NCBI GenBank assembly: GCA_023267045.1 | Contig: JAHFOB010000006.1 | Span: forward strand, 1-48,330 | DNA length: 48,330 nucleotides | Origin: Candidatus Zambryskiibacteriota bacterium | GTDB lineage: Bacteria; Patescibacteriota; Minisyncoccia; Phycocordibacterales; DATDWN01 | Direction: 5' to 3' | Part shown: positions 2,175-43,665 of the stretch, one piece after another | Position numbering within the stretch: position 1 is the stretch's first letter | Layout of the letters: each line of letters starts with the position of its first letter | Translations under genes and position numbers: made by a program | Notes under the pieces: generated by a model | Told to the model about the DNA's origin: nothing | The model's database searches: none | Seen by the model: the letters and a program-made list of their open reading frames with translations, nothing else

Positions 2175-3452
2175 TTATATACTTGGAAAATATGCTAGTG
2201 GATCAAGATAGGCTTTTATATCTGCTAGTGGAAGCGTGGCCTCTTTACATCCCCTACTATTTACATATTTTTCTATTCGAACTCCTTGGGTGGCATAGAC
2301 ACTTATATGTAAATGAGGGCCAGTGGAGTATCCAGTGTTTCCGCTGTAACCTATTGTGTCGCCTGTAGCCAAAATATCTCCAGTTGAGACGCTTATAACA
2401 GAAAGATGGCCGTATATGGTAGATAAGCCGTTATCGTGCTTGACCATAACCCATTTACCAAATGAATAGCATCCTGGATATGTATCTGTATTTCCCGTTC
2501 CAACAACAGTTCCATCCAAAACATTTTTCACTTTTGTTCCGACACTTGCTCGAAAATCTACTCCGTTATGCGAACCTGAAACATAAAGTTTCTCCGCGCC
2601 GACAGTTTTTCCAAACTTTTGGGTAATATAAACACTATCAAGTGGCCATGCCAAGATACCATTTTGTGGTTTTGGATAGCTATTTTTATCTATTAAATAG
2701 TTCAGCTGTGATTCATAATCAAAAACTTCTTTTTCAAATTGAGCTTTTTGCTCCTCTTTTGTTTTAACTAGATCCTTAAAGGCCTGTTCTTTATTTTTTG
2801 TTTGAGTCAAAATGTTAGATTTTTCGGCCGTTGTATACTCTACAGCCTGTTTTTGACCACTTAAATCTTGTTTTAAGTTAACTAGACTTTTTTTCTGGCC
2901 AGTTAATGAAGATTGCTTGGTCTGCATATCTGACTTCATTATCGTCAATTCATTACTTTTATCCCTAATCGTTCTCTGGACTTGTTTTATATTGTCCATA
3001 TCGCTCCAAACCTCGCCTATGTTTTTACTGGACAATATCATTTCCATAATTCCAGCTTCTTCCAGCGATTGAATATTTTTCAGTGCATTAATAATTGCTC
3101 TTTTGTTTAGGTCAATGTGATCTTCAGTTTTACTTATCTCTTTAGTTAACTGCTGTATAGTCAAGTTTGTTTTTACAATTTTATTCTCAGTCAGACTAAT
3201 ATCTGTGGTTATTTTTTTCTTAGTCAAATCCAAAGTTTTTATGGTGTTCTGTAGAGTTTTGGCCTGATTTCCAGCATTTGTAACTTCGACGTTGTACTGA
3301 TTAATTTCTTGTTCGAGTTGTTTTATTTGGTTGTTCCGCTCATCTATTTTAGCTTTTAGATCATCTGTTGTTGTAGCTTCATCTGCAAAAACAACACTAG
3401 ACAGTGACAGAAGAAGAATTATTAAAAATATGTATTTTAGTTTCCATTTCAT
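2175..3452 (-). CDS. Secreted M23 (LytM/EnvC-type) peptidase with coiled coil
   Basis: Predicted extracytoplasmic murein endopeptidase, or an activator of one, 425 aa. Signal peptide at residues 1-23 (hydrophobic core IFLIILLLSLSSVVFA), then a long coiled coil at about 27-245 as in EnvC/PcsB-type proteins. The C-terminal M23 domain (about 265-400) keeps the zinc ligands: H295 and D299 (HNGVD), H349 (YGHL) and H380/H382 (HLH). Retention of all of these suggests a catalytically competent enzyme rather than a degenerate EnvC. The start ATG (3450-3452) is part of the palindromic element at 3451-3557, with GGG directly abutting the ATG and no separate ribosome-binding site. Last large gene of the leftward envelope cluster. 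Confidence 0.93.
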   Translation of the reverse strand: MKWKLKYIFLIILLLSLSSVVFADEATTTDDLKAKIDERNNQIKQLEQEINQYNVEVTNAGNQAKTLQNTIKTLDLTKKKITTDISLTENKIVKTNLTIQQLTKEISKTEDHIDLNKRAIINALKNIQSLEEAGIMEMILSSKNIGEVWSDMDNIKQVQRTIRDKSNELTIMKSDMQTKQSSLTGQKKSLVNLKQDLSGQKQAVEYTTAEKSNILTQTKNKEQAFKDLVKTKEEQKAQFEKEVFDYESQLNYLIDKNSYPKPQNGILAWPLDSVYITQKFGKTVGAEKLYVSGSHNGVDFRASVGTKVKNVLDGTVVGTGNTDTYPGCYSFGKWVMVKHDNGLSTIYGHLSVISVSTGDILATGDTIGYSGNTGYSTGPHLHISVYATQGVRIEKYVNSRGCKEATLPLADIKAYLDPLAYFPSI

Positions 3453-3557
3453 CCCGTTAGAAGTAGGAAATCACATTACTTATGTGTATGACCTACAAAA
3501 ATTAAATTTAAAATATAGTATACATCAATTATAGATTTCCGTTACTTCTAACGGGAT
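3451..3557. repeat. Palindromic element, family 1 (copy A)
   Basis: 107 bp bounded by inverted arms. The left arm ATCCCGTTAGAAGTA plus GGAAATC (3451-3472) is complementary to the right arm GATTTCC-GT-TACTTCTAACGGGAT (3534-3557), apart from a 2-base bulge. The interior is AT-rich. The left edge supplies the start codon of the M23 peptidase gene. Read on the minus strand from 3561, the right edge is ATGAATCCCGTTAGA, encoding MNPVR. Related copies are at 15037 and 43422. Confidence 0.9.
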
Positions 3558-3564
3558 TCATCTT

Positions 3565-6072: not shown

Positions 6073-7170
6073 TTATTTCTTTTTATTTTTTGAAATGTTT
6101 AGAATAATTCCCACTTCAGCCAATGTCATAAATAGAGAAGTTCCACCGTGACTTATGAACGGCAAAGTTATACCTGACAAAGGCAAAACCCCAACCATAG
6201 CTCCTATGTTAACAAATGCTTGGGATACAATCATTATAACAATTCCAACAACGACAAGTCTACCAAAAGTATCTGGAACTTTTGTGGCAATTTTCAAACC
6301 TCTAAAAGCAAAAAAGACGAATAATGAAATAATAGTAAGCGCCCCGATAAAACCAAACTCTTCGCTTGCTACAGCAAATATAGAATCACCTATTGGCTCT
6401 GGCAAACCACCAAATTTTTGAATGCTCTGACCGAAACCACGACCAAACATTCCACCATTACCGATTGCGATAAGAGATTGTTTGATTTGGTATCCAGTAC
6501 TCAAAGAGTTTTCCTGTGGATTTATAAAAGTTTTAATACGATTCATTAAATACGTATGTGAATATGCCATTGCGGTAATTCCGACAATACCCAAGAGACA
6601 CGAGACTAATATATATTTCCATCGTCCTCCATCTGATAACAAAATACCTAACCCAGCAAAAACAGTTATGAGAAATGTATCTGTGTCAGGTTGTTTTAGA
6701 AGAATCCACCCAATAATTATTGTGAGAATAATGAATGGCAAAAAACCATATTTGAAACTTTGAGCTTCTTCCTTTACACCAGCAAGCCATGCAGAGAAAT
6801 ACAAAACGAAAGCGATTTTCAAAAATTCTGATGGCTGAAACGAAACTGGGCCCAGATATATCCATCTATGAGCACCACCGTGCGCAATGCCTATACCATG
6901 AACAAAAACTAAAAGAGTAGCTATGATAGAAAGAATAAAAATATAAAAAGAGTATTTTCTATAAATTTTATAATCTAATTTTGTGGTGATTATACAAGCG
7001 ATCGTACCGAAAAGTAGACCTAAAACGGTTTGACTGAAAGCTACACCAGAATATTTGGTGGCTTGTTGTGAGAGAAGCCCCATTGAAGCCGATACGAATA
7101 TCAAATACCCCCCTATGACGAGAATACATACTGATATAAGAAAAGGTATATCAACTTTAAGTTTTTTCAT
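6073..7170 (-). CDS. ftsW: FtsW/RodA-family SEDS glycosyltransferase (probably FtsW)
   Basis: Multi-pass membrane polymerase of the SEDS family that polymerises lipid II. Recognisable segments are the hydrophobic first helix, GGAHRWIYLGPVSFQPSEF, the extracytoplasmic loop around QPDTDTF, a second loop NSLSTGYQIKQSLIAIGNGG with FGRGFGQSIQK, and the C-terminal PFISHGGTSL. 365 aa from the chosen start. An upstream in-frame ATG at 7191 would add seven residues (MSFSTTG), but these are encoded inside the repeat at 7169-7260. The ATG at 7170 follows CGGG at the edge of the element, as for the M23 peptidase, aspS and rplI. The murG and mraY neighbours favour FtsW over RodA. Confidence 0.92.
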   Translation of the reverse strand: MKKLKVDIPFLISVCILVIGGYLIFVSASMGLLSQQATKYSGVAFSQTVLGLLFGTIACIITTKLDYKIYRKYSFYIFILSIIATLLVFVHGIGIAHGGAHRWIYLGPVSFQPSEFLKIAFVLYFSAWLAGVKEEAQSFKYGFLPFIILTIIIGWILLKQPDTDTFLITVFAGLGILLSDGGRWKYILVSCLLGIVGITAMAYSHTYLMNRIKTFINPQENSLSTGYQIKQSLIAIGNGGMFGRGFGQSIQKFGGLPEPIGDSIFAVASEEFGFIGALTIISLFVFFAFRGLKIATKVPDTFGRLVVVGIVIMIVSQAFVNIGAMVGVLPLSGITLPFISHGGTSLFMTLAEVGIILNISKNKKK

Positions 7171-7260
7171 CCCGGTAGTAGAAAATGACATAGCTCTACG
7201 AGCTTTATAGCACTTTCATTTAAATAAGTTATTAATTTCATGTCATTTTCACTACGGGAT
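7169..7260. repeat. Palindromic element, family 2-like (copy B1)
   Basis: The left arm ATCCCGGTAGTAGAAAATGACA (7169-7190) pairs with TGTCATTTTC-ACTA-CGGGAT (7241-7260) with small bulges, over an AT-rich interior. It supplies the ftsW start codon. It abuts a second palindrome at 7262. Confidence 0.8.
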
Positions 7261-7261
7261 A

Positions 7262-7332
7262 GCCCTGTAGTGAAGTTGGCATTTTGTTTCATTGCAAAGT
7301 ACTCTTTGCAATGCCAACTTCTACTACGGGGC
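7262..7332. repeat. Palindromic element, family 2 (copy B2)
   Basis: The outer arms GCCCTGTAGTGAAGTTGGCAT (7262-7282) and ATGCCAACTTCTACTACGGGGC (7311-7332) enclose a perfect hairpin ATTGCAAAG-TACT-CTTTGCAAT (7291-7312). The ends match those of the copy at 42532 (CCCCGTAGTAGA / TCACTACAGGG on the minus strand), but the inner arms differ. Confidence 0.85.
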
Positions 7333-13633: not shown

Positions 13634-13756
13634 TGAATCCGTAAAATTGCCTCAGATGCTAGGCGTCGGAGATTTTTAGAGTGAGCCGTACTAAACGTAC
13701 GGTGAACGAGAAAAATTGAACGACAACAACGCAGATGAGGTGATTTTACGGATTCA
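13634..13756. repeat. Palindromic element, family 3 (aspS 3' end)
   Basis: A perfect 14-bp outer arm TGAATCCGTAAAAT (13634-13647) pairs with ATTTTACGGATTCA (13743-13756). Inside are imperfect arms around CCTCAGATGC / GCAGATGAGG and a hairpin CCGTAC-TAAA-GTACGG. The last sense codons and stop of aspS are in the right arm. I recall closely similar modules in other Parcubacteria sequences. Confidence 0.8.
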
Positions 13757-15038
13757 ATCTCTTAACATCTCGTGGGAGGTACGTCGCCTCGCGCACATTT
13801 GGCAAATCCAAAATTTTCATGATAAAACGTCCAGGGCCGATTCCTGCTCCGCCGTGTGGAGGACACCCGTATCGGAAAAAGTTTATGTAGTCTTTCAGTG
13901 GTTCGAGTGACATTCCTTTTTCTTCGGCTTGCTTGGTCAAAATATCTACACGGTGTTCTCTTTGAGCCAGCGTTGTCACTTCTAGACCACGATAGAGTAA
14001 ATCTGCTCTGCGTGAACGATCGCTTCCCTCCTCTAAACGCATGTGATAGAAAGCACTTTTTGATTTGTGATATTCATGAATGAAAACAAAGTCGTGATTG
14101 TGCTCTTTCTTAACATATTCACTTATCGCGCGTTCTTCTTCTGGAGACAAGTCATGTTCCTCTCCGCTTTCCACACCTAAACTTTTCAAAATTTTCTTTG
14201 CTTCAAGCATTGTGATGCGCGGAAAAGGCTGACTCGGAACTTCGATTTTAGTTTCAGGAAATTCTTTCAACACTTGTTCAAAGCCCGAGACAATCATTCC
14301 CTCTTCTGCATCCATGACGTCGTGATGAGAATTGACGTAAGATATTTCAAAGTCCCAACCAGTAAACTCGGTCAGGTGCCTTGTGGTAAACGACTCTTCA
14401 GCTCGAAAAACCGGTGCAACCATAAAAACTTTTTCAAAGCCACTTGCCATGCCCATTTGTTTGTAAAACTGTGGAGACTGGGCGAGATATGCTTTTCGAT
14501 CAAAATAGTTTACGGTAAAAACTTCTGCTCCCGTCTCACTCGGAGTCGACATAAATGCTGGCGGATAGAGTTGTATAAAATTATTATTGTCCCAATATTT
14601 TCTAAAACCTTTTTCAAGTGCCGTCCAAATTTTAAAGATTTTTGTTTTTTCTGGTTTTCTCAAATCAATCCAACGATAGTCAAACCGTGTCGGCGCTTCT
14701 GTTTCTTCGTCACTACCCTTCACTACCACCGGGATCGGTAGTTCAGGGTCTGCGACCGATAATACTTCCAGACTAGAGACATTTATTTCAAAGCCTCCCG
14801 GCGCTTGTTTTGCTTCTTTAACTCTTCCTGTTATCGTTATAACTGACTCATGCGATAGGCCTTTTGCAGTTTCAAATGCCGGACTCGAGGCTTCGACAAC
14901 TGTCTGGATAACACCCGTGACATCGCGAAGAATAAGAAAAATAATCTTACTCTGTACCCGAAGTGTGTGAACAAAGCCCGAAACAACGACTTCCTGTCCG
15001 ACTTGTTCACCAATATCTTTATTATACGTTCGTTTCAT
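13746..15038 (-). CDS. aspS: Aspartyl-tRNA synthetase, archaeal/eukaryotic type
   Basis: Class IIb synthetase charging tRNA-Asp, and perhaps tRNA-Asn if non-discriminating. 430 aa from the chosen start (MKRTYNKDIG). It has an N-terminal OB-fold anticodon-binding domain (about 15-105) and a catalytic domain with motif 2 around APVFRAEESFTTRHLTEF and motif 3 GGAGIGPGRFIMKILDLPNVREA ending PRDVKRLNP. It lacks the GAD insertion of ordinary bacterial AspRS, and the overall length and C-terminus match archaeal enzymes. The ATG at 15038 is chosen over the one at 15080 because the intervening 14 codons fall inside repeat element C, whose CGGGATG edge provides the start. Confidence 0.93.
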   Translation of the reverse strand: MKRTYNKDIGEQVGQEVVVSGFVHTLRVQSKIIFLILRDVTGVIQTVVEASSPAFETAKGLSHESVITITGRVKEAKQAPGGFEINVSSLEVLSVADPELPIPVVVKGSDEETEAPTRFDYRWIDLRKPEKTKIFKIWTALEKGFRKYWDNNNFIQLYPPAFMSTPSETGAEVFTVNYFDRKAYLAQSPQFYKQMGMASGFEKVFMVAPVFRAEESFTTRHLTEFTGWDFEISYVNSHHDVMDAEEGMIVSGFEQVLKEFPETKIEVPSQPFPRITMLEAKKILKSLGVESGEEHDLSPEEERAISEYVKKEHNHDFVFIHEYHKSKSAFYHMRLEEGSDRSRRADLLYRGLEVTTLAQREHRVDILTKQAEEKGMSLEPLKDYINFFRYGCPPHGGAGIGPGRFIMKILDLPNVREATYLPRDVKRLNP

Positions 15039-15138
15039 CCCGTTAGAGTTTTTAATTATTAAATTCAAAGTTATAATCAATATTAGCAGTTACATTCTAT
15101 ATTTTCCACTTACCCAAGTAGTAAAACTCTAACGGGAT
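15037..15138. repeat. Palindromic element, family 1 (copy C)
   Basis: A perfect 16-bp arm ATCCCGTTAGAGTTTT (15037-15052) pairs with AAAACTCTAACGGGAT (15123-15138) around an AT-rich interior. The left edge carries the aspS start codon. The right edge reads ATGAATCCCGTTAGA on the minus strand from 15142. 102 bp, close to copies A and D. Confidence 0.92.
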
Positions 15139-42013: not shown

Positions 42014-42136
42014 AGCTTGGAGGATTTTTGACTGAGTTCAAGGCGCGAGCGAGTACTGTGACCAAAGTGTAGTAAACCTACTCTGCGGGAACAGGCGGAG
42101 CGAGCAACGTAGAAATCAGTCAAAAATACCCAAGCT
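42014..42136. repeat. Palindromic element, family 3 (zinc-protein gene 3' end)
   Basis: AGCTTGGaggATTTTTGACTGA (42014-42035) pairs with TCAGTCAAAAATacCCAAGCT (42116-42136) with minor mismatches. The interior contains GTAGTAAACCTAC and GGCGGAGCGAGCAACG, echoing GTACTAAACGTAC and GTGAACGAG of the element at 13634. The stop codon of the adjacent gene is within the right arm. Confidence 0.78.
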
Positions 42137-42635
42137 ATTTAAGGCCTTTGCAGTTACCGCCTGCTGTAAAACCCGCAGCCCTTGCCTCTTCAATCGATGC
42201 AAAGTGAACTTGATTTTGTGGCAAAATTCTTTTTACCGTACCACACCATGGAAAATAATATTTTTTACCACTTTTTGAACCTATGACTTCCCCACTTGTT
42301 TGTGGTGCTGACTGACTTGTGCTTGTGGTGATGTTTGTGGTTTTTGGCTTTGAAATAGGTGAAACTGCAACACTTGTGGTAGAAATCGACTGAATGACTG
42401 AACTGGATTGCTCTTGGTTGGGATATTCTATTTTTATTGGGGTATGCTGTTTTTCCAAGCTAGAAATACGACCTATTGTAAAGAAAATCGCCCCAACAAC
42501 GATTATAAATATAAGATTATAAAACGGCTTGACCCCGTAGTAGATTCTGGCACCTAAACTTACTGGCGCCTTTGGCGCAGTGCCAGAATTCACTACAGGG
42601 TTGATTTTTTCCAGCAAATCATGTAGACTTCCCAT
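42135..42635 (-). CDS. Membrane-anchored protein with C-terminal Ada-like zinc-binding domain
   Basis: 166 aa from the ATG at 42635 (MGSLHDLLEK). The upstream ATG at 42692 would overlap rpmA and adds unrelated residues. One membrane helix (FYNLIFIIVVGAIFFTIG, about 41-58), a Ser/Thr-rich linker, then GSKSGKKYYFPWCGTVKRI and ARAAGFTAGGNCKG with two cysteines. This small fold, related to the methyl-phosphotriester domain of Ada, is common in Parcubacteria as a surface domain. Residues 11-38 (INPVVNSGTAP to YYGVKPF) are encoded by the palindromic element at 42532, so the element has become coding sequence. Confidence 0.75.
   Translation of the reverse strand: MGSLHDLLEKINPVVNSGTAPKAPVSLGARIYYGVKPFYNLIFIIVVGAIFFTIGRISSLEKQHTPIKIEYPNQEQSSSVIQSISTTSVAVSPISKPKTTNITTSTSQSAPQTSGEVIGSKSGKKYYFPWCGTVKRILPQNQVHFASIEEARAAGFTAGGNCKGLK
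42532..42601. repeat. Palindromic element, family 2, inside a coding sequence
   Basis: ACCCCGTAGTAGATTCTGGCA (42532-42552, next base C) and the facing GTGCCAGAATTCACTACAGG (42580-42599, next GT) form arms identical at 19 of 22 positions, with an inner GCGCC-TTT-GGCGC hairpin. It is translated on the minus strand as NPVVNSGTAP through GARIYYGVK. Confidence 0.88.
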
Positions 42636-42683
42636 GTCCGATATATTATCAAATCTAAATAACAAACACGAGTCTAATAAAAA

Positions 42684-42956
42684 ATGGCACATAAAAAGAG
42701 TGCGGGAACAACCAAAAACGGCCGAGATTCAAATCCTAAATATCTAGGCGTTAAAATAACTGAAGGCGACAAAGCACAGGCTGGTTCTGTGATTATTCGA
42801 CAACGAGGTACAGATGTTTTGCCCGGTAAAAATGTAGGTATTGGTAAGGATCACACTCTCTTCGCACTTATAAATGGAACAATAAAATTTGGAACAAAAC
42901 GTAAAGTAAATTTTGATAATAAAACACACATCAAAAAGATAGTGCATGTAGTTTAA
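42684..42956 (+). CDS. rpmA: 50S ribosomal protein L27
   Basis: 90 aa. It begins [24 protein letters not shown] and contains [23 protein letters not shown], the family signature. The N-terminus lacks the cleaved extension found in Firmicutes. Divergent from the zinc-domain gene and convergent with rplI through a shared terminator. Confidence 0.97.
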
Positions 42957-42981: not shown

Positions 42982-43423
42982 ATTTCGCTTCGATATTTAC
43001 AGTAAACTCTACCTTTCTGTCCATAGCTTCAACCACCACTTTGTGTTCACCTACTTCTTTTAGTGGCTTTGGGAGTTTGATTGATTCTGGGTCAATATTT
43101 AAACGAGCGGATTTTTGAATTTCTCCAGATAGCATTTCTTTTGTAATACCGGCAAACAAGTGACCTTTTTCGTTTGCTTTTTCTTTGAGATTTAGAGTTA
43201 GTCCTTTTATTGTATCAAGATTTTTGGCTAAAAGTTCACCCTGGACTTTTTTCTCTGTCGTAGCTTTCGCCTTAAGGACACGCGATTTTTCCAGGGCAGA
43301 TGCTGTTGCAACTTCGGCCATTCCACGTGGAATAAGCATGTTCAAAGCATAGCCGTCTGAAACGTCCTTTATATCGTATTTCCTCCCGAGCTTAGGAATA
43401 TCTTTGAGTAATATAATTTTCAT
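42980..43423 (-). CDS. rplI: 50S ribosomal protein L9
   Basis: 147 aa, normal length. The N-terminal domain starts MKIILLKDIPKLGRKYDIKDVSDG and includes YALNMLIPRGMAEVAT. The C-terminal domain contains KGHLFAGITKEM and HKVVVEAMDRKVEFTVNIEAK. L9 is missing in several other CPR lineages, so its presence narrows the origin. Its start codon is the edge of palindromic element D (ACGGGATGAAA). Confidence 0.97.
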   Translation of the reverse strand: MKIILLKDIPKLGRKYDIKDVSDGYALNMLIPRGMAEVATASALEKSRVLKAKATTEKKVQGELLAKNLDTIKGLTLNLKEKANEKGHLFAGITKEMLSGEIQKSARLNIDPESIKLPKPLKEVGEHKVVVEAMDRKVEFTVNIEAK

Positions 43424-43526
43424 CCCGTTTAAAAATAGGAGATCTGGTATAGAATTATTACTCCCTATTTAATTATTAAACTTATCTGACTCTGGTAATA
43501 TTGATCTCCGCTATTTCTAACGGGAT
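43422..43526. repeat. Palindromic element, family 1 (copy D)
   Basis: ATCCCGTTTAAAAATAG plus GAGATC (43422-43444) faces GATCTCC-GC-TATTTCTAACGGGAT (43503-43526), with the same 2-base bulge position as copy A. The interior includes TTTAATTATTAAA, also nearly present in copy C. 105 bp. Confidence 0.9.
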
Positions 43527-43550: not shown

Positions 43551-43665
43551 CAAATCCCAATGTCCAAATCCCAATTCCCAATGAAATGACCTAATGAGCC
43601 AATTCCCAATTGGACATTTGAGCATTGGGATTTTCATTGGGAATTAGGTCATTGGGGCTTGGTCA
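43551..43665. repeat. CCCAATG/CATTGGG-rich palindromic region
   Basis: Stretches such as AATCCCAATGTCCAAATCCC and CCAATTCCCAATGAAATGAC face GAGCATTGGGATTTTCATTG and AATTAGGTCATTGGGGCTTG. The region is a set of overlapping inverted and direct repeats 3' of ctpA. The same words occur at the scpB start (12077-12101). Confidence 0.75.

Follow-up and report, generated by a model that had tools for sequence, protein, structure and literature searches.

Mobile palindromic elements at the start codons of Patescibacteria genes and their probable kinship with GIY-YIG nuclease-encoding elements

The window analysed here, a stretch of 48,330 nt from a Candidatus Zambryskiibacteriota genome, contains three palindromes of about 100 bp, and each of them ends at the ATG of a minus-strand gene. 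What are these palindromes, and how did they come to lie at this position? The original prediction described them as sharing outer ends and as standing upstream of genes for an M23 peptidase, aspS and rplI. We found all three with the limits given in Table 1, and their exact ends run from TCCCGTTAGA to TCTAACGGGA. Every copy began with TCCCGTT and ended with AACGGGA (3/3), and copy 3 had one variant arm, TCCCGTTTAAAA. The sequence AACGGGAT occurred six times in the window, always as an edge of one of the three copies; in the shuffled window it averaged 1.26 occurrences and never reached six. Folding of the single strand into a hairpin gave z values of -5.8 for copy 1, -7.5 for copy 2 and -2.3 for copy 3. 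Domain matches agreed with the three host genes, and the tRNA synthetase behind copy 2 was of the D/K/N type, consistent with aspS. The Rfam scan of the window at gathering scores gave zero matches.

Table 1. Positions of the elements, their target duplications, the host genes and further palindromes in the window.
Feature	Position	Strand	Remarks
Element copy 1, 105 bp	3452..3556	-	arms AAGTAACGGAAATC/GATTTCCTACTT; at start codon of M23 peptidase gene
Copy 1 target duplication, gene side, TGAA	3448..3451	-	gives the M23 gene's ATG together with the element's A (3452)
Copy 1 target duplication, promoter side, TGAA	3557..3560	-	with the A at 3561 forms the original ATG
M23 peptidase gene, downstream of copy 1	2175..3452	-	PF01551, E 6e-26
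Element copy 2, 100 bp	15038..15137	-	arms AGAGTTTTAC/AAAAACTCT; at start codon of aspS
Copy 2 target duplication, gene side, TGAA	15034..15037	-	
Copy 2 target duplication, promoter side, TGAA	15138..15141	-	
Class II aminoacyl-tRNA synthetase, aspS-like	13746..15038	-	PF00152 and PF01336
Element copy 3, 103 bp	43423..43525	-	arms AAATAGCGGAGATC/GATCTCCTATTT; at start codon of rplI
Copy 3 target duplication, gene side, TGAA	43419..43422	-	
Copy 3 target duplication, promoter side, TGAA	43526..43529	-	
rplI, ribosomal protein L9	42980..43423	-	PF01281 and PF03948
Two tandem palindromes of another end family	7171..7331	-	CCCGGTAGTAGAA/CACTACGGGA, then a second hairpin; inverted repeat I3
Short palindrome, second family	42532..42601	.	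ACCCCGTAGTAGATTCTGGCAC/GTGCCAGAATTCACTACAGGGT; inverted repeat I5; within ORF 42135-42692

One family with more copies across Parcubacteria had been expected, and a lack of copies beyond this contig was named as speaking against it. Such absence was decisively contradicted. The window's genome (G000, 750 kb) contained 52 exact ends, corresponding to about 26 elements, mostly 100-119 bp long with a few of 46-65 bp. Elements with exact ends were present in 25 of 99 genomes of the order (the window's genome is one of the 99), and a reversed control pattern had 0 matches in any of them. Scanning the GTDB species genomes revealed at least 118 stretches with the element. Among the matches listed, nearly all hosts were Patescibacteria, including Paceibacterota, Nomura-, Kaiser-, Zambryski-, Campbell-, Kerfeld-, Levy-, Doudna-, Saccharibacteria and others; a few of the matches listed came from MAGs labelled Omnitrophica, Planctomycetes or Desulfobacterales, which may be misbinned. 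Contigs broke inside or at element copies (end of G000:C1 at 87170-87240, G006:C17:9, G006:C22:3, ends of G015:C5 and C6), as expected if near-identical recent copies exist, so that the copy numbers are lower bounds.

Direct repeats of 3-4 bp flanked most of the elements and differed from gene to gene: TGAA, TGGA, TGTA, TGAG and TGCG, and also TGA, TGG, TGC and TGT. The two flanks matched over 3-4 bp at 64 of 80 sites, and where the right flank was other than TGAA 24 of 28 matched (permutation mean 2.6, maximum 9 of 5000). A pan-phylum set, which shares some genomes with the order-level set, gave 28 matches in 45 on this second comparison (mean 3.2, maximum 11). No perfect duplication or no TG flank was found at 20 of the 84 sites.

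Comparison of orthologous loci with and without the element, as the original prediction had suggested, revealed empty sites for L024, aspS and ftsE. The L024 gene was interrupted in G000 and G003, where it reads ...ATGAG[element]ATGAGTAA, and uninterrupted in seven relatives (G004, G010, G009, G008, G002, G011 and G014), several of which keep a similar upstream region (G000 ttgcatattcagccattttagcataatattacccgtattacat; G004 ttgcatatttggccattttatcatagtattacccatattacac). In G010, ftsE contained a related element that encodes a GIY-YIG nuclease, with an ATGA duplication; nine relatives have ftsE without an insert, and a TATAAT-like box stands about as far from it. In G004, G006 and G010, aspS has no element before it. 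The rplI orthologues do not have conserved upstream regions and are therefore uninformative in detail, so the empty-site comparison rests on L024 and ftsE. Target duplications that are specific to the locus, together with orthologous sites lacking the element, show well that the elements are insertions, and mobile.

A fixed cis-acting RNA or regulatory element that does not move would also place a hairpin just 5' of a start codon, with covarying arms and an orientation fixed relative to the gene. We give this reading hardly any credence, as the host genes are unrelated and have orthologues without the element, the target duplications are locus-specific, near-identical copies stand at different genes, and the Rfam scan was empty. 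An attC site of an integron was rejected by inspection, the order of GTTAGA/TCTAAC being opposite to that of the attC R boxes.

Two loci showed unusual arrangements. At L108:601-837 (G041:C21) elements stand in tandem, one of them within the duplicated ATGAA at the other's edge, so that a duplicated start codon was reused as target. At L116:1001-1109 (G061:C21) a tRNA-Ala (CGC) gene is located between TCCCGTTAGAAATT and AATTTCTAACGGGA, which are element-like ends; it adjoins tRNA-Pro and tRNA-Ser genes, and its flanks have no matching target duplication.

The start codon itself is the target. The right flank, which follows directly on the terminal A of the element, was TG in 80 of 84 cases; this A with the duplicated TGN(N) forms an ATG, which is nearly always the gene's own start codon (80/84 copies in relatives). 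Because TGN(N) is duplicated at the site, the element sits within the start codon and supplies at most the A. The claim that the element donates the start codon is thus right about the ATG at its edge and wrong about the donation: TGAA is duplicated, and only the A comes from the element.

We rebuilt the sites by joining the flanks, and considered a gene start to be an in-frame stop upstream with an open frame downstream; these statistics were computed on individual loci, with the background ATGAA taken from those loci. By this criterion 56 of the 64 rebuilt sites were ORF starts, whereas the ATGAA of these loci as a whole gave 26% (p about 2e-24). Before insertion the codon had begun with A at 63 of the 64 sites; the one exception was G at L028, where a GTG start became ATG and the element supplied the A. 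ATGAA was found at 52 of 80 sites, whereas AA follows ATG in 20% of background genes. No upstream motif at fixed spacing was found in the pooled sites. TATAAT stands roughly 6 nt ahead of the ATG in many of the native upstream regions (e.g. L017, ftsE). Targeting of the transcription start of leaderless genes was considered and rejected: the pooled sites had no -10 signal at fixed spacing, and at L078 the target lies directly behind a tRNA-like 3' end.

The start-codon position might also be a matter of survivorship, with insertion at any ATGAA and retention of those copies that spare genes in compact genomes. ATGAA is indeed preferred as a sequence, no other motif marks the sites, insertions within essential genes would be lost, and GIY-YIG elements with other ends are also found in 16S rRNA, in apparent RNase P RNA and between genes. 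Gene starts are, however, far more frequent at the sites than at ATGAA of the same loci, and very few copies were found at other intergenic ATGs, where tolerance would be expected. We give survivorship a little less than an even chance; it covers one step and is compatible with our preferred explanation given below. The excess at gene starts suggests that active targeting may contribute to the start-codon bias.

The insertion also explains the peptide at the outer edge. MNPVR arises where the duplicated ATGAA runs on into the end of the element, and at copy 1 the original ATG (A at 3561) now reads ATGAATCCCGTTAGA (MNPVR). Upstream ORFs opening at the outer edge begin with [N/S]PVR in 41 of 64 cases, so this part of the original prediction was correct. 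It had further placed MNPVR at the N-terminus of many annotated Parcubacteria proteins. The element was open and in frame with the host gene in only 1 of 64 cases, and such annotated N-termini probably come from wrongly assigned start sites or from short peptides encoded upstream. For the same reason an N-terminal extension of the kind made by Rickettsia palindromic elements (RPE) was rejected, a single case in 64 being in frame without stops.

The arms vary between copies and remain complementary within each copy, as was claimed. Element positions 11-13 vary among the 84 copies (A/G, A/G/T and T/C), with agreement of the two arms at 99, 94 and 98% there; permuting arms among copies lowered this to 51, 38 and 57%. 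Further inward the arms are offset and family-specific, for example CCGCGGTC on the upstream side and CAGGTCGCGGTC on the gene side, and in all asymmetric families read by eye the asymmetry has a constant orientation relative to the gene. The original prediction took the covariation to speak against transposition, and named arms identical among copies as the sign of simple transposition that would count against it. The covariation is real, but the conclusion drawn from it is not supported, given the target duplications and empty sites. Recent copies at different genes share their arms (L016 and L029, 97% identical; window copy 3 and L019 of the same genome, 95%), and older element lineages differ in their arms and covary within each copy. 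Arms are thus copied when the element moves and co-evolve over longer times, and arm covariation is no argument against transposition.

Which enzyme moves the elements? A version of the element with a gene, which the original prediction could not take into account, gives a lead. In a genome of the window's genus (G003, locus L138) the same ends with a TGA duplication enclose an ORF for a GIY-YIG nuclease, the stop TGA of which overlaps the ATG of the next gene. GIY-YIG homologues were found in 80 of the 99 genomes of the order. The GIY-YIG loci L158, L160, L161, L163, L164, L167 and L305 also have TTAGA-type ends and lie at start codons with duplications; L158 precedes a transaldolase-like gene and L163 a murG-like gene (named by N-terminal sequence only). 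Gene-bearing partners with the ends of the short elements are L138, L158, L163, L164, L167 and L305. The same arrangement with other ends was found at L166 (CGTACGAAA ends), L179, L183, L185, L315, L324, L325 and L332, of which L179 is at a typA-like gene and L183 at ftsE (again named by N-terminal sequence only). Inverted repeats enclosed the GIY-YIG gene at 48 of 69 loci, and of the 300 control genes 12 had repeats of this score; about 30% of the GIY-YIG loci had no inverted repeat.

The GIY-YIG protein is a single domain of about 85 aa matching PF01541 (E 1e-16 to 1e-18), with the invariant residues Y16, R26, H30 and E62 (catalytic Tyr, Arg, His and Glu). Its AF2 model had a pLDDT of 91.6. 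The nearest solved folds were Slx1, I-TevI, the UvrC N-domain and UPF0213, with Slx1, I-TevI and UvrC at Z 5.5-7.7, and no family closer than the GIY-YIG nucleases at large came out of the fold comparison. Branched DNA is the substrate of Slx1, and a Slx1-like fold would suit a palindromic substrate, although the likeness proves nothing.

In the maximum-likelihood tree of the nucleases, the end sequence tracked the clades, with 15 changes against 45.8 for shuffled labels, some end-type labels having been set by simple motif rules and a few being crude. The end-type clades were TTAGA with nested TACGAAA, GTAGTRAA, TTAAATAA, CACACC and an rnpB pair; the tree has 83 columns and many unresolved forks, but the end-type clades are supported. 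Genomes of one genus were spread over several GIY-YIG clades. The end sequence therefore follows the phylogeny of the nuclease across hosts, and not that of the hosts.

The short elements are thus best considered MITE-like members of a group of palindromic mobile elements of Patescibacteria that encode GIY-YIG nucleases and insert at start codons, a reading to which we give a probability of about 0.7. That the GIY-YIG protein is the mobilising enzyme is something we infer from the sequence comparisons above. Short elements and TTAGA-clade GIY-YIG genes co-occurred across genomes, a positive but modest association (p = 0.018), and 8 of 16 TTAGA-clade genomes had no short copies. In the window's genome, a 94.6% complete draft, no TTAGA-clade GIY-YIG gene was found, so that its approximately 26 copies would either have no mobiliser left or depend on a gene that the draft lacks; the GIY-YIG gene that this genome does have, at C27, is without an inverted repeat.

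This lack of a TTAGA-clade gene beside many short copies would fit a different mover, a Y1 (RAYT) or DDE transposase acting in trans, with GIY-YIG as a resident passenger. Y1 transposases are present in 63 of 99 relatives, and G000 has four of these genes; REP-like palindromes are generally known as classic Y1 substrates. But none of 20 Y1 loci read, four genomes rich in short copies included, had TCCCGTTAGA or TCTAACGGGA, and most of them had their own, different palindromes. A passenger should not co-evolve with the ends, while the end type follows the GIY-YIG clades, and no protein gene other than GIY-YIG recurred between the ends. Judging by these Y1 loci and the end types, we regard such a mover as unlikely. 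Y1 (RAYT-type) genes flanked by palindromes of their own, different each time, were seen at L361, L364, L366, L371 and L374-L377.

The GIY-YIG genes with other ends showed some further locations. At L184 (G025:C2) and L330 (G094:C1) a GIY-YIG gene flanked by inverted repeats ATGCCACACCTC interrupts the 16S rRNA gene close to its 5' end; the two genomes belong to different families and the insertion site is identical. L175 (G009:C29) and L308 (G042:C7) have CCCCGTGAGATAA-type ends and occupy the same site in both genomes, which reads by eye as the RNase P RNA gene (GAGGAAAGTCCGAAC comes after). The ACCCTGTTAAATAA GIY-YIG family (L174 in G048:C40, L182 in G039:C33, L306, L313 and L329) has a common downstream stretch TGATGATTTTAATAGTC...AATCAATC, which stops right at the ATG of unrelated genes in both L174 and L182. 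The true end of this family may therefore lie further out, again at a start codon.

Two other palindromic regions of the window are probably related to the main elements. The tandem palindromes at 7171-7331 end at the in-frame ATG of the gene 6073-7191, arranged as at the main copies, and their ends resemble those around GTAGTRAA-clade GIY-YIG genes. The short palindrome at 42532-42601, with TTGA on both sides, is probably related as well. Just upstream of copy 3, at 43552-43660, direct and inverted repeats made of CCCAATTCCCAATG overlap in a cluster that resembles the CCCCAATTCC repeats surrounding the Y1 transposase in L374.

We propose the following scheme for the movement of such elements. 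An autonomous member would be the same end pair around one small GIY-YIG gene. The GIY-YIG protein would recognise the palindromic ends, which may be extruded into a hairpin or cruciform, and would cut at the ends and, in a staggered manner, at the target TGN(N); repair or ligation would leave the 3-4 bp duplication. Gene-less copies of about 100 bp would be mobilised in trans. Arm matching would be kept by selection or by hairpin-templated correction, because the hairpin is, in this proposal, the substrate. Insertion at the start codon would leave the promoter as well as the coding sequence intact. Where the autonomous version is of the TTAGA type and its target is ATGA, the stop TGA of the nuclease overlaps the host ATG, and translation of the host gene may therefore be coupled to that of the nuclease. 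We know of no case of transposition by a GIY-YIG enzyme. I-TevI leaves 2-nt 3' overhangs, and overhangs of this type would not by themselves give a 3-4 bp duplication, which counts against the scheme.

Since GIY-YIG is a homing-endonuclease fold, the duplication could instead come from homing-type repair, in which the nuclease cuts the start codon, a donor copy repairs the break, and the duplication is flanking microhomology, not the product of a staggered cut. TGAA is the commonest flank (52/80) and would often be common to donor and target. However, the duplications match the target's own second codon even when this is not AA (TGGA, TGTA, TGAG, TGCG, TGGC), so a donor could not have supplied both sides, and we hold this route to be quite improbable. 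Returning to cutting at ends and target by the GIY-YIG protein, we consider the odds somewhat better than even that the elements represent a new class of DNA transposon, with a single-domain GIY-YIG protein as sole enzyme, covarying ends acting as hairpin or cruciform, start-codon specificity and a 3-4 bp duplication, mobilising gene-less copies of about 100 bp across Patescibacteria.

To our knowledge, known DNA transposons use DDE, HUH/Y1, tyrosine or serine recombinase, or Cas1-type chemistry. If true, an element that moves with GIY-YIG as its sole gene, and that has defined ends and duplicates its target, would be a further class beside these and a new role for a well-known nuclease fold. 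Start codons would then be an unusual kind of safe harbour, one that fits very compact genomes. The same reading would offer an explanation for the odd MNPVR N-termini and the many small GIY-YIG genes in these genomes. Pairs of enzyme and element, such as L138 or L158 with short copies, are small enough for direct testing. No published description of the start-codon element was found in the literature searched, which did not include preprints and most subscription journals; searches on MNPVR, on MITEs of Parcubacteria and on GIY-YIG with palindromic or inverted-repeat mobile elements revealed nothing that describes these elements.

Among known systems, MITEs are likewise short and gene-less, with terminal inverted repeats, target duplication, many copies and a gene-bearing partner with the same ends. 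Their partner is a DDE transposase, whereas here it is a GIY-YIG nuclease, and here the outer part is wholly a hairpin with covarying arms, in fixed orientation at start codons. REP/BIME sequences with RAYT (Y1) are also short extragenic palindromes with a foot, in many copies and in bacteria, and some related families here end in GTAGTRAA. Single-strand Y1 transposition, however, makes no target duplication, while one of 3-4 bp is present here, and the Y1 loci read (0/20) do not carry these ends. RPEs are palindromes of about 100-150 bp at or in protein genes of reduced genomes, and we know of no nuclease partner for them; they are tolerated as in-frame protein inserts, unlike the elements here (1/64 in frame). 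RPEs are mentioned in PMC2635572.

Homing endonucleases of the I-TevI type share the GIY-YIG catalytic domain and the selfish spread, but the elements here encode no separate DNA-binding domain and are probably without an intron, possess palindromic ends and a target duplication, and are associated with many different target genes instead of one homing site. Closest in setting are the insertions in CPR rRNA genes, which encode GIY-YIG proteins, were found to match neither group I nor group II introns and were judged to fall outside homing (Tsurumaki et al. 2024, PMC11270868). Like the elements here, and the 16S cases L184 and L330 in particular, they are in Patescibacteria and carry a GIY-YIG gene. 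That report concerns rRNA only; its text is without 'palindrom', 'inverted repeat' or 'duplication', and start-codon insertion and gene-less copies are not described there. If true, the present reading would account for these rRNA insertions, which did not fit homing.
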